Assembly (NCBI GenBank): GCA_011390345.1
Contig: JAABSP010000005.1
Span: forward strand, 1-36,003
DNA length: 36,003 nt
Direction: 5' to 3'
Source of the DNA: Desulfobacteraceae bacterium
GTDB taxonomy: Bacteria; Desulfobacterota; Desulfobacteria; Desulfobacterales; JAABSP01
Positions 7,079 through 16,944 of the stretch are shown in pieces. Positions within the stretch are counted from its first letter, which is position 1. Each line of letters opens with the position of its first letter. The position numbers and the translations under genes were made by a program. The notes under the pieces are model-generated. The model ran no database searches, was not told where the DNA came from, and saw nothing but the letters and a program-made list of their open reading frames with translations.

Positions 7079-7594
7079 GCGTTGCCTTCCAAAAAGCTTC
7101 TGGCTGCTGATCTTCAGCACGATAAAGCAGATAATGGCGATCCAGATCAGGGTCCAGAAGGAGCCGCCAAAGAAGAGCCATATTCTGGTCTTCTGAATGG
7201 CCAGGACTGCCGAAAAAGTAATCACGAGAATGATCATCAGCGAATAGAGCCGATCCACCCCGGGCAGCCGGGAGAGATCCACTTTCCGCGCGATGATGAC
7301 CAGGGTGATGATCATGGAGATGATCGGCAGAAAATAGACAAAGACATTGACCGTCAAAAGGTTTTCCCGGATAAAGAAGATCGAATATGCCGTAAGCACA
7401 CCCGCAAGAATGCCCGGGATGCAGACAAGATAGACAAAGGCCGAATAGAGGTATTTCCAGGGGCTGCGGAGTCCATTGAACTGATTGATGCCAAATCCCA
7501 TCAGCCAGACCAAGAGCGGCGGTAAGAGATACCCCGCGAGCAGATACAGGGGATGGATCTGCTTGAGTCTTAGAATCAGCTCTTGAATGGTCAT
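7070..7594 (-). CDS. Small multi-pass membrane protein of unknown function
   Basis: I do not recognise a family. The 174-residue product has about five hydrophobic segments (roughly residues 18-35, 48-70, 82-100, 117-133 and 140-160) and a basic C-terminus (SSQKLFGRQRRY), suggesting an integral inner-membrane protein with a cytoplasmic tail. Its start overlaps the stop of the nucleotidyltransferase/HD gene by 4 bases (ATGA), so it is the last gene of the - strand operon that begins far upstream. Position suggests a link with the molybdenum-hydroxylase maturation genes, but nothing in the sequence shows it. Confidence 0.75.
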   Translation of the reverse strand: MTIQELILRLKQIHPLYLLAGYLLPPLLVWLMGFGINQFNGLRSPWKYLYSAFVYLVCIPGILAGVLTAYSIFFIRENLLTVNVFVYFLPIISMIITLVIIARKVDLSRLPGVDRLYSLMIILVITFSAVLAIQKTRIWLFFGGSFWTLIWIAIICFIVLKISSQKLFGRQRRY

Positions 7595-8622
7595 CTGGTC
7601 AGAAGCGCGGGGTGGAACCGATTTTTTTGCATTTCAAATTCCTCTTCCAGAAAGATACGCTGATCGTTGAGAGCCATCTGGCGGGCCATATAAAGAACTT
7701 CTGCCTCGCCGATCCTTGCATCTGCCTTGAAACAGAGATCCGTTTGGCATGACACGATCTTTGCAACCCGGGGAAAGCCCATGTCCCGGAGCATGGCCCC
7801 GCCGGCCCCGGCATGATCTTTCCGGCCTTTGGCGATGTCGTGGAGGAGCGCAGCCGCACGGATAAGATCCGGGTCAAAAGAGTTACCGCTCTTCTGCAGT
7901 TTCCGGCACAATCCCTCAGCGATCTCGGCCACCTTCCGGCAGTGGCGGATGATCTCTTCCCCTGCAGCGCAGATATGGGTCAATATGGAGGCACACTCCG
8001 CGGCATCGGGGATGTCGAGATTTTGACACCGGATCTGTGCCGCGTCATAATCCTTTGGATGGTTCATGTTCATCAGAATCTGCCGATCCGGAACCGGAAC
8101 ATCGAGGGACAGATATTCCGATTGGGAAAGGATTGTCTTCAGGCCGCCATCCGGTTCGCCTTTTAGAATTGGCGGTACCAGCGCCATCGGGATTAAGGGC
8201 GGATGGCCCCGCCTCCCCTCAAAGCAGGGATGGATGATCTTCCCCGGGTTTTTCTCATATGCGGCCGCCAGCATCCGAACCGTCAGGGGACGGACCAGAC
8301 AGATGTCGGCCGGGATGATGAAAAAGGCGTCGGTTCTTTGGGCATCCAGATCTTTTACACCGGCTTTGACCGAGGAGAACATACCCCGGTCATATTCGAG
8401 ATTCTCCACGATTCGCACGTTGGATGCCTCCAGCGCCCCGCGCATTTCCGGAGCCCGATGGCCGATAACCACCCGGATTTCAGGGATATGGCTTTCCTGA
8501 AACAGATGGATGATCCGATGGATCACCAAGGTATGGCCCATAGGCAGCAGCGGCTTGAATCTACCCATCCGGGAAGAGTATCCGGCCGCAAGGATGATTG
8601 CGGAAACGCAATTTGCGCTCAT
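7591..8622 (-). CDS. MocA/MobA-like nucleotidyltransferase fused to an HD hydrolase domain
   Basis: Residues 1-190 form an NTP-transferase domain of the MobA/MocA (YgfJ) type: the nucleotide-binding loop LAAGYSSRMGRFK at 11-23, PAD at 104-106 with the likely metal-binding D106, and GRRGHPP at 136-142. Such enzymes attach CMP or GMP to molybdopterin; next to XdhC the MocA cytidylyl role is favoured. Residues ~205-343 form an HD domain with HD at 261-262 and a further His at 270, suggesting a metal-dependent phosphohydrolase. Start ATG 8622 overlaps the xdhC stop (ATGA); an upstream in-frame extension lies inside xdhC and is rejected. The HD half is not part of the standard MocA, so the protein may both make and cleave a cofactor or nucleotide. 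Confidence 0.85.
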   Translation of the reverse strand: MSANCVSAIILAAGYSSRMGRFKPLLPMGHTLVIHRIIHLFQESHIPEIRVVIGHRAPEMRGALEASNVRIVENLEYDRGMFSSVKAGVKDLDAQRTDAFFIIPADICLVRPLTVRMLAAAYEKNPGKIIHPCFEGRRGHPPLIPMALVPPILKGEPDGGLKTILSQSEYLSLDVPVPDRQILMNMNHPKDYDAAQIRCQNLDIPDAAECASILTHICAAGEEIIRHCRKVAEIAEGLCRKLQKSGNSFDPDLIRAAALLHDIAKGRKDHAGAGGAMLRDMGFPRVAKIVSCQTDLCFKADARIGEAEVLYMARQMALNDQRIFLEEEFEMQKNRFHPALLTR

Positions 8623-9674
8623 TCCGACATCCGGCTGCGCGCCTGAATCATCTCGGCCGCGATGCTGACCGCGATCTCCTCCGGGGACTGCGCGCGGATG
8701 GGAAGGCCGATGGGGCAATGGACCCGGTCGATATCCTTCTGCTCGAACCCGATGTTGAGAAGCGCCTTGTAGATGCTGTCCCGTTTCTTTCTGCTGCCGA
8801 TCATGCCGATATAGGCGGCCTCGGTCTTCAGGGCCTGGGCCAGTACGATCCGGTCGTGCAGATGGCCCCGGGTGAAGATGACGATAAAGGAATCAGGGTC
8901 TATGGAAAGATCGTCAAACGCGTTTTCAAAGCTTTCCAGGATCCGGATCTCCTGGGCTTCGGGAAAATGTTCTGCATTGGCAAATTCGGCCCGGTCATCC
9001 AGAACCGTAACCCAAAATCCGGTCATGGCACAGAGGTGTGCGGTAGGCTTTGCAACATGGCCTGCGCCGAAGAGAAACGCGGTTTTGGGTTTTTGGGCCG
9101 GTTCGATGATCACCTGCAGGCCATGGAGGTCATCAACTTTCAGCGACGAACTCCCCCCGGCCTTCAAGATGATCCTTCCCACTTCCTCCTGCGACAGGGG
9201 AAGCCCCCCGTACAGCAAGCCATCCCCATCAATGATGCCGTGGCAGACCCGGGGCATCTTCTCCGGGCCTTGGCCAATCGTGGTGATAAAATACCCCTTT
9301 TCCCTTTTTTCCAGGATTCTATTCCATCGGCTGAAGATTTCCGCATTTTCAGAAACCGGGGGAATCGGGTCCAGAAAGATCTCGGCCTGCCCCCCGCAGA
9401 TCATGTCCATGGAGGCTACATCCTCATGGTTCAGGTCAAAGGGCATGAACCGGCAGCCGCACTCGGATTCGAGGATCTCAAGAGCCTTTTCAATGACCCG
9501 GGCCTCCAGAAGACCCCCGCCCACGGTCCCGATGATCCCCCCCTCTGCAGTGATGAGCATCCGGGTTCCAGAAGTCCTCGGGGTCGAGCCTGTATGGCTG
9601 ATGATGGTCGCGATCACGAACCCGGTTTTCTCACTGAGCAGTTCGCAGATTATTTTGGATAAGTGTTTTGCCAT
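8619..9674 (-). CDS. xdhC: XdhC/CoxI-family molybdenum hydroxylase maturation protein
   Basis: The XdhC/CoxI family binds the molybdenum cofactor and helps insert its sulfurated form into xanthine-dehydrogenase-type hydroxylases. The N-terminal XdhC_CoxI domain shows HTGSTPRTSGTRM at 27-39, GGGLLEAR at 52-59 and CGGQAEIF at 93-100. The C-terminal Rossmann half shows GAGHVAKP at 203-210, then the GSRKKR segment and the closing CPIGLPI...SPEEIAVSIAAE. ATG 9674 is chosen (352 residues) over a TTG at 9704 that would overlap the preceding ATPase gene; it lies 10 bases after the ATPase stop. Directly coupled to the MocA-HD gene. No hydroxylase structural genes are in the window, so its client enzyme is elsewhere. 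Confidence 0.92.
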   Translation of the reverse strand: MAKHLSKIICELLSEKTGFVIATIISHTGSTPRTSGTRMLITAEGGIIGTVGGGLLEARVIEKALEILESECGCRFMPFDLNHEDVASMDMICGGQAEIFLDPIPPVSENAEIFSRWNRILEKREKGYFITTIGQGPEKMPRVCHGIIDGDGLLYGGLPLSQEEVGRIILKAGGSSSLKVDDLHGLQVIIEPAQKPKTAFLFGAGHVAKPTAHLCAMTGFWVTVLDDRAEFANAEHFPEAQEIRILESFENAFDDLSIDPDSFIVIFTRGHLHDRIVLAQALKTEAAYIGMIGSRKKRDSIYKALLNIGFEQKDIDRVHCPIGLPIRAQSPEEIAVSIAAEMIQARSRMSE

Positions 9675-9684
9675 TGTTCCTTTT

Positions 9685-12420
9685 TCAGAATGTGCCTCTC
9701 CCAAGGGCCTTTCGCTTCAGAATCAGAACCCGTGGTCGAGCCCCTTTGTCCAGGGAAAAATCGAGCCCTTCTCGAAAGATTTCAGGGATATAATACAGCG
9801 GCGTGCCCTCTTTCCCCCGATCTTCAAAAATGACTCCCATATCTTCCAAATCCTTGATCGTCTGCGGGATCATTTCAAACTGTTCGGCAGTGAAGGGGAT
9901 GCGCCGATCCGCAGCAGGATATTTTACCAATACATCATCCACCCACTCTCTGAAAATCGGATATTCCTCTTTTGTCTCCTCTACCTTTTTGACGCTGCAG
10001 GGCTTCAGTGCCCGGCGGATGGACTGCGGCGGTAAAAGGCGATCTTGAGACCATTTTTCAAATGCGACCTCTTCAGGGCTGTTGCTGGTGATTTCTGCCG
10101 CATGATAAAGCAATCTTACGATATCTCTTGCCTGAAGTCGCCCCTTGAAATCGGTCAGCGCGGCATAGATCCACCGAACCGCATAGGCTTCTCTGGAATG
10201 GTTTGTACCAAGCTTCATTCCCCACAACTCATAAAGGCGGGCAATCAGTTCTTCCCGGCCCAGGGTGGCAAGTTCATCGGCTTTTGCCCCCAGAATATCT
10301 GCCTGAGTGCATATCCAGAAAACCAGCTTCAAGAAAGCCTCTTCATTCCAGTGCAGATCATAGGGCTGGTAGAGATTTTCAAACTGCTTCAGATTTTCCG
10401 TAATCGCATATCTCAAAAAGTCCCTGCGCAGAAATATGATGATTCCAAGTTTGGTCTGCCGGATTTCTGAAATCCTTTTGGGAAGGTCAATCAGACTTTC
10501 CAAAGCGGATTTGCGGGATGGCCGGGATGAAATATCGGCAAAAAGATCTTCCAGGCCGTCAAAGATAAAGATGATCCGGGTCTCTTTTTCCTTTAACCAT
10601 TGATTCATTTCGTTGAGCATGGCCTGGGGGCCATCTGAATCAAGAGTGATGCCGATCGCTTCAGCCATTCCCCGGACCCAGAATTGGGCCCATACGGATC
10701 GATTGATCTCATCCCCTATTTTTTCCATTTGATCCCTGAAGCCGGAGGGCGAAAATCCTCCTTCCGGATGCACCGCATAAAAGAGGCTTCTGGCATCTTC
10801 TAAAAGATCTTCTGCTTTTCTGTGCAGATTTTTGGATTGCAGAAGGGGAAAGATGTGTGTTTTTCCTTGAGCTGACAGATCTTCGTCCAGGACCCGGCGC
10901 ACAAAATTCTCCCAGAAGCCGAAACGGGCAAGCTGGAGATAGTTGAAGGTTTTTCCGGCCCCTTTGGCACCGATGGAGACGACCTTGGGCAATTCTTCCC
11001 GGAAAACGGTCGCCAGATTCCTAAGAGGCTCGGTGATCAGCAGATCCTCTCCCTCACCGCTTTCTGCAAATTCATATTTCCGGCAGATCTCCTCCAGTTT
11101 TTTGACTTCCGAGGGCGGATCAGCAGGTTTAGGACGGAAAATGTTTGCCCGAACCTGTTCATCGGCCCAAGCTCTTGCCATTTTCATAATGGATGTGGGC
11201 CCCAGTTTTTCCCGGGCCTCCTCCCATGACTGGATATAGAGCAGCTCCGGATTAAAATCAGATTCCGTGATTTCAAGACGTTCGGATAAGATATTCTCCT
11301 TTTCCGATTGGAGGTATGAGGAGCGGAGTCCTTCAAGCGCATTTTCAAAGGCCGGGGTTTTTCGGATATCCGGATCAAGCATGGTGAGAAGGACCACAGG
11401 ATCGAAATATTCGGGTTGGGCATCCGGATTCCAGTGTTGAAGTACCCGGCCAATATGCTCCAGAACGAGACGGGTTCCCCGCACCGATTGTTCTACAACT
11501 GTGGTGACAACAAGGCGCCGGACTCTTGGATCGAACAGAAGCGGACCCGAGATTTCACTGGTCCCGGATCGCATATCGATGAAGAGATATTCCACATCCA
11601 AGGCTCTTCCCAGTCTGTAAAGCGCATCGCCATAAATCCAGGCACTCTGGCGGCTTCTCACCAGATGTTCGGGAAGCACCGGCGTATCCAGCAGTTCTTT
11701 GTCATCAACACAGGCCGGAAGAAAATAGACTTTTGATTTCCCCTCTGTTTTTACATACCGTTTGAGTTCTCTTGCAAAAAAGGCAAGGGTTTCTTCTCTG
11801 TTGGTCGGGGGATAATGGTAAGCCTCCAGAAAATCGATGAAAGATATACCGGGTGGCTGCTGTTTTTCCAGCCGGTTCCAGTAGGTCAGCCCCGGGGCTT
11901 CGAGATCTGCGTCAATGACCAGGATCTTTTTGTCCTCCTCCCGGAATCGCTCCAGCAGGGCGAAGAGATACGCGGAAAGGTGCAGGGTCCGTCCGACGCC
12001 GCCCTTGAAGGAATAGAAGGCGTATATCTTTGGTTTTTCAGAGGGGAAAGGCTTCGGCAGAGAAATGCCGGCCGTGGTTTTTTCTCCATTCTCATCGTTT
12101 TTTTGAAGATAGGTGATCTCCTCCCAGAAAGGTCGGACAGGAATTTCAGCACCCTCGACTTTCTCCTCGATCTGAAATTCAACCGGCAGTTCCGCGCCGT
12201 CAATATCCAGTTGAATCACGGATTCTTCCGACAGAAACCAGTCACCGAACCAGTCTTCAAAAGCCCTTTTCGCTTTTTCCGCAGCAGCCTGATCCGTCAC
12301 TCCGATCTCAACCGCATCAGAAAAAGAGCTGATTCGGGTAACTCCTTGCGGAAGACGAAGGCCGAAATTCGTCTTATCGAGGATCTTCCGCCTCACATCG
12401 AGCCAGGTCAGCAGTTTCAT
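9685..12420 (-). CDS. Dual P-loop protein: ParA/MinD-like domain with KGGVGRT loop plus STAND/KAP-like ATPase
   Basis: 911 residues with two nucleotide-binding domains. The N-terminal ~125 residues are unassigned. Residues ~130-430 are a SIMIBI (ParA/MinD/ArsA-like) domain: FKGGVGRT at 138-145, with the signature Lys K139 kept but the second, Walker-A lysine replaced by R144; DADLEAPG at 170-177 and FIDMRSG at 280-286 are the two following acidic motifs. Residues ~465-800 hold a second P-loop, GAKGAGKT at 484-491 with Walker B FIFDGLEDLF at 618-627 and a LRRDF arginine segment near 664, resembling STAND or KAP-type regulatory ATPases. The C-terminal ~120 residues look like a winged-helix tail. 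It overlaps the HEPN-like gene by 4 bases (ATGA). I recall a RefSeq family called KGGVGR-motif variant AAA ATPase; its function is, to my knowledge, uncharacterised. A switch or effector-control role is inference. Confidence 0.8.
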   Translation of the reverse strand: MKLLTWLDVRRKILDKTNFGLRLPQGVTRISSFSDAVEIGVTDQAAAEKAKRAFEDWFGDWFLSEESVIQLDIDGAELPVEFQIEEKVEGAEIPVRPFWEEITYLQKNDENGEKTTAGISLPKPFPSEKPKIYAFYSFKGGVGRTLHLSAYLFALLERFREEDKKILVIDADLEAPGLTYWNRLEKQQPPGISFIDFLEAYHYPPTNREETLAFFARELKRYVKTEGKSKVYFLPACVDDKELLDTPVLPEHLVRSRQSAWIYGDALYRLGRALDVEYLFIDMRSGTSEISGPLLFDPRVRRLVVTTVVEQSVRGTRLVLEHIGRVLQHWNPDAQPEYFDPVVLLTMLDPDIRKTPAFENALEGLRSSYLQSEKENILSERLEITESDFNPELLYIQSWEEAREKLGPTSIMKMARAWADEQVRANIFRPKPADPPSEVKKLEEICRKYEFAESGEGEDLLITEPLRNLATVFREELPKVVSIGAKGAGKTFNYLQLARFGFWENFVRRVLDEDLSAQGKTHIFPLLQSKNLHRKAEDLLEDARSLFYAVHPEGGFSPSGFRDQMEKIGDEINRSVWAQFWVRGMAEAIGITLDSDGPQAMLNEMNQWLKEKETRIIFIFDGLEDLFADISSRPSRKSALESLIDLPKRISEIRQTKLGIIIFLRRDFLRYAITENLKQFENLYQPYDLHWNEEAFLKLVFWICTQADILGAKADELATLGREELIARLYELWGMKLGTNHSREAYAVRWIYAALTDFKGRLQARDIVRLLYHAAEITSNSPEEVAFEKWSQDRLLPPQSIRRALKPCSVKKVEETKEEYPIFREWVDDVLVKYPAADRRIPFTAEQFEMIPQTIKDLEDMGVIFEDRGKEGTPLYYIPEIFREGLDFSLDKGARPRVLILKRKALGRGTF

Positions 12421-12854
12421 AACCGGATTTCATCCTTTATCCATTCCGCGATGGCATACAAATCGTTCTCTATTTGGTCATCCTTCGGTTCAATGAGTTC
12501 ACCACCGTAACGCCACACCTGGTTGAGACCCCCGCAGGAGAGTTTCCGTTTTGAAGGTTCTGCCCCGGCACATCTGATCTCCTTCATGCGAAGCTGATCC
12601 GGCAGTTTGAGTTCTTTCCCTGCAGAGAGCAGATCCAGAAGCTTATTGAGATTATGGCTTGCTCCATGAACTTCAGGAGTTGCATCGGAACGGTTCACGG
12701 CCCGCCGTTTGATCAGCACCGCTTTCAAACCGCATTCAACCGCATAAAAAAGAAGCAGCCGCTGAGCATTGGTCTTCGGCTCTTTTTGGGATGCTGAAAG
12801 ATTTTGTCGATAGGCCCGCTGCATTTCCCGATCCGTAAAAGGGATGAGCTTCAT
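12417..12854 (-). CDS. Small HEPN-like helical protein
   Basis: 145 residues, predominantly helical. Residues 29-48 (AQRLLLFYAVECGLKAVLI core) look like the first long helix of HEPN-type domains; H67 in SHNLNKLLDLL and the WRYGG segment at 114-118 fit the later part of such a fold. I do not see the canonical Rx4-6H ribonuclease motif clearly, so it may be a non-catalytic HEPN or simply an unrelated helical protein. It starts 2 bases after the TMEM43-like gene stop and overlaps the dual ATPase start by 4 bases, so the three are almost certainly translated together. HEPN proteins are often RNases or substrate-binding partners of NTPases in conflict systems; that role is inferred from context only. 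Confidence 0.6.
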   Translation of the reverse strand: MKLIPFTDREMQRAYRQNLSASQKEPKTNAQRLLLFYAVECGLKAVLIKRRAVNRSDATPEVHGASHNLNKLLDLLSAGKELKLPDQLRMKEIRCAGAEPSKRKLSCGGLNQVWRYGGELIEPKDDQIENDLYAIAEWIKDEIRL

Positions 12855-12856
12855 TT

Positions 12857-15001
12857 TTAAGCGGCCCCGGCTCTTGCCGGCTCTCTCATCAAGAGCCCAA
12901 CCCCTGCCAGAATGAACCCAACTGAAATCAGCATCCCCCCGATCAGGGGCCGAAAAAAGATCCAGGCGGCCCCGGCGGTCAGCAGGACAAAGGCCGCGGC
13001 CAGAAAAAGAGTGACCTTTTTGGCCTCGGTCTTTTCTATCCTTCCGACAAGGGGCAGCGTATCCCGCGCGGAGATCAGAGGGGCCAGGATCATATAGAGG
13101 CCCATAAACATCAGCAGAAATCCGCCGGCCCGGAAGAGCCAGGTGTGGAGTCCATTTGCGCTCCGGGCCGAGGCGAACATCTCCCCTGCTGTCCGGGTTC
13201 CGGCCGCGAAGACCTCCACCTCCCCGTTTTCGGTCTTGTAGGGCGCAAAGGTATTTCCCTGCTGCTGTGCCACAATGCTCACCCGGTCCGGCCGCACCAC
13301 GCTGTAGGTGATCTTGAGATCGTTGACGTTCGGGTTGCGGGGATCAGCGCCGATGTAATAGCCGCCATTGTGGATCTTTGCAGCACCTTGAAGCTCCCTT
13401 GGCAGGTTTGCCGAGATCACATCCACGGGCAGGGGCTCGAATTGGTTCATCTGATCCACCATTCGGCGCGGAAGCTCGAAGGCTCCCAATGTCACTTTTG
13501 GGGCCAAAAAGGTCTCATCTTTCACCGGCATCGTCTCCTGATTGGGGGGATTGACTTTCTGTCTGAATCGGTCGGCCTCGATGATCCGATCGGACCAGAC
13601 CTTTTCATAGGCCGCACCACCCTCTGCTTCCCCGCTGTCGCCGGCTCCGTTATCGGTTTTATGAGCATTGACTTCGTTCCACTGGTAGATCTGGACCTGC
13701 CGGCGCAGCTTGATCACGTTTTCGGCCGAAACCGCGCTGATGGCCCGAAGCGGTTCCGAAAAATCCCCCTGCCCTACTGCCACCCGCAGGATCTCCTCTC
13801 CTGTTTGAGTCCGATGGGGGGCAAAGGAATGCCCCTGCTGCTGGGCCGTCACCGTCACCCCCGCGTTGCGCACGATCCGGTATTCGATTCGCAGATCCCC
13901 GATCTCGGGCTGGTGGGGATCTCTTCCCATGTAGAATCCGCCGTTGTAGAAGGTCAGCCGGTCCCGGATGTTGTGGGGAGGATCGGCCATCGGGCCGAGG
14001 ATGCGGAAGGACTCATACGAATCGATCTCCTTTACGATCGCGTTTGGAAGGGTGAACGCGCCCAGGGAGACCCGGGGGGAGACCCAGCGGAAGCTTCGGT
14101 AGTCGATAACGCCGGGATTGGCATGTCCTTGGGGCTGGCGGAACCGGCTCGACTGGATGGGCCGGATGGACCAGATCTTTTCATAGGCCGGCGGAGCCCC
14201 CGGAAGATTCTCCTCATTCCACTGGTACATCAAGACCCGGCGCTCCAGTTTTATGGCCTTTACAGAGATCCCGAACTCCCGGTCCGGAATGTAGGCCCCG
14301 CTCTCGGCCCTGCCCGAGACCTGAACCAGTCTCCCCTCGTTTGCCGGGTCCACCCGGTTCGGGGAGACCAGGATCGGCCGCTGACCAATGGCTTGGGCCG
14401 GCCCATCGTTTAGTGCCCCGGCCGCGGCCGCAACACCGGTCACATAAATCAGCTTTCCGTTGTTGGCCGGATCGACCCGATTGGCAGAGATGGTGAGTAC
14501 CTCTCCGGTTCCCGCCTTCAATGCCTTATGGCGGAGGACTGCCTCTCCCTCGTTCAGGAAAAGAAGAGGAAATGCAGCAAGGAAGAGGAGAATGCCGATG
14601 ATCAGAACAATGAGGGCGCTCCCCCTCAACCGGCTTTGGCCATCTTCCCTCTCTTCGGTATCCGGAGGCGGTGTTTGGGCTTCATCAGAATCGAAATCCC
14701 CGGAGAAGCGGGCCGGGGCCGCATCGTCAGAAGTTTCCGGAGGTTCCAAGAGTTCCTCCTCCATCGCCTCCTCCGGTGTTTCCTGGTAAGGGGTCTCTTC
14801 AAATGGCGGCTCCGCTTGATCCCGCGGCTCATCCATCCCTTTTCCGGAATCCTGAAACGGCTCCTCTGCGGTCTCTTCTCCGAAAATGGTCTCTTTTTCT
14901 GTCCTCTCTTGGACAGGTTCTTCGGTCACCTCTTCCGGGTCAGGCGATTCGGGAAATCCCCCGTCAACAATCTCCTCTTCCCAACGATCCTCCCCAGCCA
15001 T
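12857..15001 (-). CDS. TMEM43/LUMA-family membrane protein with duplicated ectodomain
   Basis: 714 residues. Residues 1-125 are strongly acidic and low complexity (many Glu-Glu and Pro), probably a disordered cytoplasmic tail. A membrane helix spans ~128-150. The following region is TMEM43-like: NRVDPANNGKLIYVTG at 174-189, repeated as NRVDPANEGRLVQVSG at 215-230. Two long homologous units follow, ~252-415 and ~431-610, each with RRxxxYQWNE, AYEKxWS, the SRFRQ/DRFRQ site, a VSLGAF/VTLGAF strand, NGGFYMG or NGGYYIG with ADP/RDP, and VTAQQQG/IVAQQQG. Three C-terminal helices follow (~618-642, 663-683, 685-705). In eukaryotes TMEM43 is an ER/inner nuclear membrane protein. Start ATG 15001 follows AAGGAG by 4 bases. 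First gene of the three-gene block with the HEPN-like and dual-ATPase genes. Confidence 0.82.
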   Translation of the reverse strand: MAGEDRWEEEIVDGGFPESPDPEEVTEEPVQERTEKETIFGEETAEEPFQDSGKGMDEPRDQAEPPFEETPYQETPEEAMEEELLEPPETSDDAAPARFSGDFDSDEAQTPPPDTEEREDGQSRLRGSALIVLIIGILLFLAAFPLLFLNEGEAVLRHKALKAGTGEVLTISANRVDPANNGKLIYVTGVAAAAGALNDGPAQAIGQRPILVSPNRVDPANEGRLVQVSGRAESGAYIPDREFGISVKAIKLERRVLMYQWNEENLPGAPPAYEKIWSIRPIQSSRFRQPQGHANPGVIDYRSFRWVSPRVSLGAFTLPNAIVKEIDSYESFRILGPMADPPHNIRDRLTFYNGGFYMGRDPHQPEIGDLRIEYRIVRNAGVTVTAQQQGHSFAPHRTQTGEEILRVAVGQGDFSEPLRAISAVSAENVIKLRRQVQIYQWNEVNAHKTDNGAGDSGEAEGGAAYEKVWSDRIIEADRFRQKVNPPNQETMPVKDETFLAPKVTLGAFELPRRMVDQMNQFEPLPVDVISANLPRELQGAAKIHNGGYYIGADPRNPNVNDLKITYSVVRPDRVSIVAQQQGNTFAPYKTENGEVEVFAAGTRTAGEMFASARSANGLHTWLFRAGGFLLMFMGLYMILAPLISARDTLPLVGRIEKTEAKKVTLFLAAAFVLLTAGAAWIFFRPLIGGMLISVGFILAGVGLLMREPARAGAA

Positions 15002-15945: not shown

Positions 15946-16944
15946 TTACCCCACTTTAACGATGGTGCGTCCCATTTTCTGCGCCTTCAGGATCTCGTCG
16001 ATATGGGGGCTGAGATCGGCAAGGGGAACCTCTTTTGTGATGTCGTCGATATGGGGCAGGTTCCATTCACTGGCCAGCCGGTCCCAGATCCGCAGCCGCA
16101 TATCTCTGGTGCAGTTCTGGGAATCGACGCCCAGAAGGTTCACCCCCCGCAGGATAAAGGGATAGACCGTCAGGGGCAGATCCCCGGATGCTGCATTGCC
16201 GCAGCAGGTGATCGAACCGTGGAGCTTTGTTGAACGGATGGCAGTAGAAAGAATATCACCGCCCACTGTATCCACCACCCCGGCCCACTGGCTCTTGAGC
16301 AGGGGCCGCTGGCTGGTATCCGTGACCTCCTCCCGGCCCACAATGGTCTTTGCGCCGATATTTGTCAGAAAATCCCTGGCCTCGGCCTTTCCCGTGACCG
16401 CGGCCACATCATATCCGGCCGCCGCCAGAAAGGAGACCGCAAGGCTGCCCACCCCGCCGCTCGCGCCCGTTACCAGCACAGGTCCCCCTTGGGGCGCTAT
16501 TCCCCGGTCCTCCAGATGGATCACCGAAAGCGCGGCCGTCAGGCCCGCGGTGCCAAAGGCCATGCTCTTTGAATAGGAGAGCTTCTCCGGAATCGGGATC
16601 ACCCACTCGGCCGGAACCCGGATATACTGGCCAAAGCCGCCGGAGGTATTCATCCCGAGATCATATCCTGTCACCAGCACCCGATCCCCGGCTTTGAAAT
16701 CGGGATGATCGCTTTTCTCAACGGTTCCGGCCGCATCGATGCCGGGGGTGTGGGGATAATTGCGGGTGACCCCCTTGTTTCCGATGGCTGAAAGTGCATC
16801 CTTGTAATTGAGGGAGGAGTAGAGCACCCGGATGAGCACCTCCCCCTCGGGAAGATCGGCAATGGACCGCTCTTCGATCTTTCGCTCATACTTCTTCTCT
16901 CCGGCCTCCCGGACCACCATCGCGGAAAAGGTCTTTTCGGACAT
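15946..16944 (-). CDS. acuI: AcuI/YhdH-type acrylyl-CoA reductase (zinc-independent MDR)
   Basis: Medium-chain dehydrogenase/reductase of the YhdH/AcuI group, which reduces acrylyl-CoA to propionyl-CoA with NADPH. Landmarks: SSLNYKD at 43-49, PHTPGIDAAGTV at 64-75, the GFGQY loop at 103-107, GTAGLTAAL at 131-139, and the dinucleotide-binding VTGASGGVGS at 158-167. No structural-zinc cysteines are present, as expected. Length (332) matches the family. In marine bacteria AcuI detoxifies acrylate from DMSP; here no DMSP lyase is seen, so a role in 3-carbon or general acrylyl-CoA detoxification is inference. Located between the His-rich protein gene and the AKR gene. Confidence 0.88.
   Translation of the reverse strand: MSEKTFSAMVVREAGEKKYERKIEERSIADLPEGEVLIRVLYSSLNYKDALSAIGNKGVTRNYPHTPGIDAAGTVEKSDHPDFKAGDRVLVTGYDLGMNTSGGFGQYIRVPAEWVIPIPEKLSYSKSMAFGTAGLTAALSVIHLEDRGIAPQGGPVLVTGASGGVGSLAVSFLAAAGYDVAAVTGKAEARDFLTNIGAKTIVGREEVTDTSQRPLLKSQWAGVVDTVGGDILSTAIRSTKLHGSITCCGNAASGDLPLTVYPFILRGVNLLGVDSQNCTRDMRLRIWDRLASEWNLPHIDDITKEVPLADLSPHIDEILKAQKMGRTIVKVG

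Follow-up and report, generated by a model that had tools for sequence, protein, structure and literature searches.

A bacterial TMEM43 family protein with two ectodomains, one apparently nested within the other

The TMEM43 gene of the window and its family

The window (the whole 36,003-nt stretch of DNA analysed here) carries on its minus strand, at 12857–15001, an ORF that according to the ORF list and its translation codes for 714 aa, followed in the same direction by a gene for a 145-aa protein (12417–12854) and one for a 911-aa ATPase (9685–12420). The 714-aa protein is a member of the TMEM43 family. In the search with the TMEM43 Pfam model that the original prediction had proposed, PF07787 (whose loop was formerly called DUF1625) matched with E 8.9e-96 and 320.5 bits, against a cut-off of 23.3, and two stretches passed the threshold, placed at 12947–13690 and 13766–14188 by a search of the protein's own genome. 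A TMEM43/LUMA-like protein, as had been predicted, is thus borne out, both units matching the Pfam model well over its cut-off. Its two homologous units were also correctly recognized: besides the double PF07787 match, the two ectodomain units share 38% identity across 165 residues (E 1e-39 in one single comparison), far beyond chance, and the landmarks YQWNE, AYEK.WS, NGG.Y.G and AQQQG, listed earlier, each occur twice in the translation, as does NRVDPAN. NCBIfam and PHROGs yielded no family for the 714-aa protein at E 0.01, and no PADLOC family was matched by it at E 0.1. A second TMEM43 gene, with a single unit, lies elsewhere in the same genome, at C12:14716–15243. The features of the window gene, with residue numbers referring to the protein, are as follows.

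12857..15001, minus: double-ectodomain TMEM43 family gene, 714 aa (ORF; PF07787 E 8.9e-96, two stretches)
14687..15001, minus: acidic N-terminal tail, residues ~1–105, cytoplasmic by the family's reported topology
14507..14641, minus: TM1 and its helix, residues 121–165 (helix 22–66 of the full model, in which model residue 1 is protein residue 100)
14405..14509, minus: N0, first strands of the outer ectodomain, residues ~165–199, profile 60–94, with the first NRVDPAN (end of block 1)
13760..14371, minus: complete ectodomain, apparently inserted, residues 211–414, profile 65–281, with the second NRVDPAN and the first YQWNE (block 2; unit model)
13190..13723, minus: core of the outer ectodomain, residues 427–604, profile from 101, with the second YQWNE (block 3)
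12890..13189, minus: TM2–TM4, residues 605–704 (full-model helices 506–545, 558–582 and 586–605)

Like human TMEM43 and Drosophila CG8111, for which the available part of PMC9307560 describes a four-TM topology, the window protein is predicted to have one TM helix before a large ectodomain region and three TM helices after it. It differs from them in its bacterial host, in its long acidic N-terminal tail and in having two ectodomain units where, by that published description, the human and fly proteins have one loop of about 250 aa, lumenal in the human protein; the earlier statement that human TMEM43 is single-copy agrees with this. Since a single ectodomain is a trait of the known members that lies outside the Pfam match, we call the window protein a variant of the family. 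The single-copy bacterial TMEM43 proteins, including that at C12:14716–15243, share its TM1–ectodomain–TM2–4 plan but lack the insert and any tail that is both long and acidic, several of them bearing C-terminal TPR repeats instead. Bacterial homologues as such are already in print (PMC9307560 and PMC12295021, each in the part available), and the double-ectodomain protein adds an uncommon variant to an established family; among the titles and abstract starts listed for the open literature, subscription papers being outside the scope of the search, we found no description of a duplicated bacterial TMEM43. In its available part PMC9307560 also describes a TM3 serine (human S358) as conserved in metazoan members and, like that of PMC12618784, reports a TMEM43 variant as the cause of a severe inherited human heart disease.

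Arrangement of the two ectodomains

Proteins with two ectodomain units (hereafter doubles) were found in four genomes, that of the window and those labelled G298, G494 and G409, and were compared with a profile of 401 positions derived from 23 single-copy bacterial TMEM43 proteins. All four matched it in three like blocks in the same order: block 1, with TM1 and the first strands (N0), runs from profile 4–10 to 94–95; block 2, a complete ectodomain (N1 and core1), from 60–65 to 281–286; and block 3, with core2 and TM2–4, from 98–101 to 382–393. In the window protein these blocks correspond to residues 115–199, 211–414 and 427–706. All four doubles are TMEM43 family members with two units arranged as TM1–N0, N1–core1, core2–TM2–4. 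In the profile block 3 begins where block 1 ends, with almost nothing missing between them, and a whole ectodomain therefore appears to sit in a hairpin loop of another, that is, a domain nested within one of its own kind, a description that we consider moderately probable. Block 2, for its part, comes close to one entire TM-to-TM ectodomain, and in a separate MAFFT alignment the insert stretch was empty in every single-copy row displayed (1 in 2 rows), bar one stray residue in most.

The tandem ectodomain duplication put forward originally was thus half right: the ectodomain is duplicated, but the copies look nested rather than tandem, the N strands and core of one unit enclosing a complete N and core unit. 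Similarly, NRVDPAN does occur twice, as noted then, yet the 'second small duplication' proposed around it is probably part of the same event as the large one.

Modelled alone (residues 200–424, with 27 aligned sequences), the inserted unit gave a mean pLDDT of 91.8 and a pTM of 0.84, and the insertion site maps to the turn between strands E38–41 and E46–49 of this model. The full double model (residues 100–714; mean pLDDT 83.6, pTM 0.53), whose insert part is backed by only four aligned sequences, has a largely repeated strand pattern with helix 22–66 and then helices 506–545, 558–582 and 586–605 around the beta-rich part. We infer that N0 packs with core2 across the insert, the pTM of the full model being a point against this pairing.

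In structural look-ups with the ectodomain unit, Foldseek returned no PDB match at E 0.001 or better (best E 0.017), and VIA returned MCM chains with a best Z of 6.3, where a Z under 8 can reflect a common arrangement; the MCM N-terminal domain is an OB-fold. At E 0.001 or better the full model had three matches, each to a flavivirus envelope protein (E 1.2e-04 to 3.4e-04), and these were rejected, given TM-scores of 0.06–0.09 and rmsd values of 26–32. A search by sequence for a solved TMEM43 relative found none, the one hit being a cytochrome c oxidase subunit at E 0.61. Lack of a structural match does not show that the fold is new. Among viral predicted proteins, a Myoviridae 'transmembrane protein' (A0A8S5PR85) resembles the insert unit (13730–14404) with E 3.2e-09 and a TM-score of 0.63 by query, and giant-virus ORFans from Satyrvirus and Tupanvirus do so with E 2.3e-04 and 2.5e-03 and TM-scores near 0.3.

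Distribution and copy number

Presence of PF07787, counted at E 0.001 in phylum, class, order and family samples that overlap, was found in 11 of 297 phylum genomes, 16 of 291 class genomes and 21 of 389 order genomes (19 above the family cut-off), as well as in three of the four genomes of the window's family and three of the six of G494's family. Doubles occurred in 4 of the 389 order genomes, the widest count, with G000 and G298 in one family, that of the window, and G494 and G409 in another. Because single-copy TMEM43 is the commoner state among the genomes sampled and doubles are so few, the double looks like a derived variant. As a rare and apparently derived form it tells little of the ancestral role of TMEM43, and by itself does not reveal the ancestral function that, as originally suggested, a duplicated bacterial version could disclose. 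Outside the window's phylum, one scan of genome contigs gave two loci, and one scan of plasmids gave seven records, none covering 80% of the protein.

From these searches 35 TMEM43 ORFs were extracted. Neither the profile nor the trees include the six partial ones (two from L060, and L059, L028, L015 and L030), and L058, a near copy of L020, and L022, the G471 protein, were kept out of the profile and retained in the trees. Nearly all single-copy proteins are covered by the profile in one piece, L017 being split by a deletion inside the core. Within this one order, the number of ectodomain copies is zero (L030), one or two. In L030 (G407:C127, 1420–1920), a 166-aa TMEM43 ORF (Pfam E 2.1e-17), TM1 is followed almost directly by TM2–4, with no ectodomain, and the match covers profile 25–60 and then 290–385. 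At L060 (G646:C1:3046931–3047675), TMEM43 is split over two overlapping frames, by either a frameshift in the gene or a sequencing error.

The doubles have a further trait in common. The stretch before TM1 is 98–174 residues long in the four, with 33–50% D/E, and in the window protein 45 of the first 122 residues are D or E. All four doubles have a tail both long and acidic, a combination that none of the 25 single-copy proteins shows; three of these 25 have 61–118 residues before TM1 with 3–9% D/E, and in the G471 protein this stretch is 28 residues with 11 D/E. Moreover, when cores were scored against the single-copy profile, the outer one had more bits per residue than that of the insert in 4/4 doubles, clearly so in three; in G409 the values were 1.07 for the outer core and 1.06 for the insert, with the insert ahead in total bits (198.8 vs 194.7). 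For the short N segment the outer copy was higher in three of the four, and the window protein showed the reverse (insert 1.17, outer 1.07). Judged by these sequence scores, the inserted copy seems somewhat less constrained than the outer one.

C-terminal TPR repeats scored above the Pfam cut-off in the single-copy relatives L020, L021 and L057 and below it in L029 and L027. By eye, the C-terminal tails of L024 (without a Pfam TPR match) and L027 (with a weak one) are like those of the TPR-bearing relatives. Three other single-copy proteins, L032, L033 and L034, have a C-terminal extension of 69–76 residues without a Pfam match, which by eye could be a small DNA-binding-like fold.

History of the insert

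The genome G471, of the same family as G494 and G409, encodes a TMEM43 with a single ectodomain. At the position of the junction it has DG, as do the four doubles; in the remaining 24 single-copy proteins the residue after D is P, K, S, D, T or R (three of these 24 being read from the alignment). After DG the G471 protein reads QSSMPSGISV, which resembles EKSS upstream of the insert in G409 and also the residues that follow the insert in G494 (MPSGITV) and G409 (PPAGISV); the latter, post-insert likeness is absent from the window protein and G298. Because its linker residues thus resemble both ends of the insert, they suggest that G471 lost it, which is the history that we favour and do not regard as proved.

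Phylogenies lean towards such a loss, short of proof. The outer-parts tree, whose bootstrap had not settled, placed G471 among them, with the five together at 93/98 (not starred) and G471, G494 and G409 together at 99/93 (starred). That same unsettled tree paired G471 with G409 (87/62) and the core tree paired it with G494 (100/84), and this pairing with different doubles counts against loss. A clade uniting the four doubles to the exclusion of G471, a group named by architecture and not taken from the tree, was rejected (p 0.0042; core alone, p 0.033), and a G494–G409 clade without G471 was not (p 0.093 for the outer parts, p 0.111 for the core).

Alternatively, the insert could have entered twice, once in each family, with G471 representing the pre-insertion state of its own; such a history is compatible with nesting, and we judge it unlikely while according it some weight. 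It accords with the G494–G409 clade not being rejected, with the restriction of the downstream linker likeness of G471 to doubles of its own family, and with the inserts themselves: those of the two families share 30–36% core identity, and inserts share 31–41% with two single-copy proteins (from G186 and a spirochaete), so that inserts from different families resemble each other no more than they do these single-copy proteins and give no proof of one insert origin. Against two entries stand the resemblance of the G471 linker to both insert ends in G494 and G409, the DG common to G471 and all four doubles, and the rejection of the four-double clade. An attempt to show an origin of the insert in the protein's own gene was unsuccessful: support was 20/51 for a group of inserts, outer cores and G471 and 49/91 for the four inserts together, and pairing of the window insert with its own outer core was neither supported nor rejected (p 0.27).

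Two separate tandem duplications, one of the NRVDPAN strands (profile 60–94) and one of the core (98–286), would also yield the observed block order as N–N–core–core, and the sequence tests made here do not tell them from one insertion. The protein would then contain two types of repeat, possibly with a strand swap. We nevertheless find this history distinctly doubtful, since two separate events would have to share a border (94/98) by coincidence, profile matches showed one of these duplications without the other in none of the 25 extracted single-copy proteins, and the length inserted corresponds almost exactly to a single TM-to-TM ectodomain.

Possible function of the nested arrangement

Insertion of one ectodomain into another, the reading that we prefer, would make the protein an inner-membrane anchor with an extra periplasmic head. 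With N0 pairing with core2 across the insert, the outer domain would keep the ancestral fold and its membrane-proximal position. The inserted copy would stand on the outer domain, further out in the periplasm, as an additional and somewhat less constrained head. Less surely, the protein may be a membrane-anchored scaffold or sensor, in which the outer domain couples to the helix bundle, the inserted head provides another binding site, or one that reaches further, and the acidic tail acts as a cytoplasmic recruitment arm. The acidic tail and the C-terminal TPR repeats of relatives suggest partner recruitment in the cytoplasm, and these TPR fusions fit a scaffold role.

Combining these points, we tentatively put forward the ectodomain as a plug-in module, present in zero, one or two copies within one order, which in the doubles is nested in a hairpin and in G471 has been lost, with linker residues of the two junctions left behind; the nested copy would then represent a natural separation of a membrane-coupling domain from a binding head. 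If this is true, the nested copy could serve to find what TMEM43 ectodomains bind, and the outer membrane-coupled copy compared with the inserted one, together with relatives that have one ectodomain or none, would make a simple genetic series on the role of the ectodomain.

We consider it improbable that the protein forms an ion channel or part of one, a role claimed for human TMEM43, with the second ectodomain forming or capping a vestibule. Cation-channel activity of purified human TMEM43 is reported in the available part of a review (PMC11059273), and among G471, G494, G409 and G298 identity is higher in TM2–4 than in the core (55–64% vs 44–53%). In the window protein, however, TM2–4 are no more conserved than the core (37–41% vs 40–46%), and moreover no solved relative was found and the structural matches of the full model were not credible.

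The downstream gene pair

The TMEM43 gene is separated by a 2-base gap from the 145-aa gene, which in turn overlaps the ATPase gene by 4 bases, and because this trio looks operon-like a functional tie was considered first. The ATPase matches the NCBIfam KGGVGR AAA domain (E 2.2e-45) and, below that family's cut-off, the Sll1717 ATPase (E 3.1e-18). In PADLOC it is a fused gene matching both PDC-M28B and PDC-M28C (E 2.9e-10 and 1.5e-09) of a candidate defence system, and the 145-aa protein matches PDC-M28A weakly (E 0.0027); TMEM43, not found at the nine other ATPase loci described next, is no part of PDC-M28. Of 241 class genomes, 25 had ATPase matches, 11 (the window's own included) at E 1e-100 or better, and nine of the ten other strong loci were fetched. 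Eight of these nine have a homologue of the small gene beside the ATPase and none has TMEM43, for which there was one chance hit at E 0.78. Conversely, neither downstream partner was found in any of 22 wider TMEM43 loci, the three other doubles included, among which the contig of L015 ends inside TMEM43, leaving the downstream side off the contig. In G298, of the same family as the window, the double TMEM43 is preceded by a homologue of the window's oxidoreductase at 15946–16944 and followed by other genes.

We therefore dropped a functional tie between TMEM43 and the pair (0/22 and 0/9 loci, respectively), which most likely form a cassette of their own, placed behind TMEM43 here by chance. 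That TMEM43 is the membrane arm of a three-gene conflict system with them is highly improbable, the shared direction and tight spacing and the PDC-M28B/C- and KGGVGR-like ATPase notwithstanding, in view of the ATPase loci that keep the small partner but not TMEM43, the TMEM43 loci with neither partner, and the different genes behind TMEM43 in G298.

The 145-aa protein is HEPN-like by eye, with no Pfam family fitting convincingly, and seven of nine members of its family match PDC-M28A weakly. Some of the ATPase loci adjoin what by eye are large helicase-like or condensin-like genes. Just behind the ATPase of the window, at 7591–9704 on the minus strand, lie an XdhC-related aldehyde oxidoreductase maturation factor and a DVU_1551 family NTP transferase.
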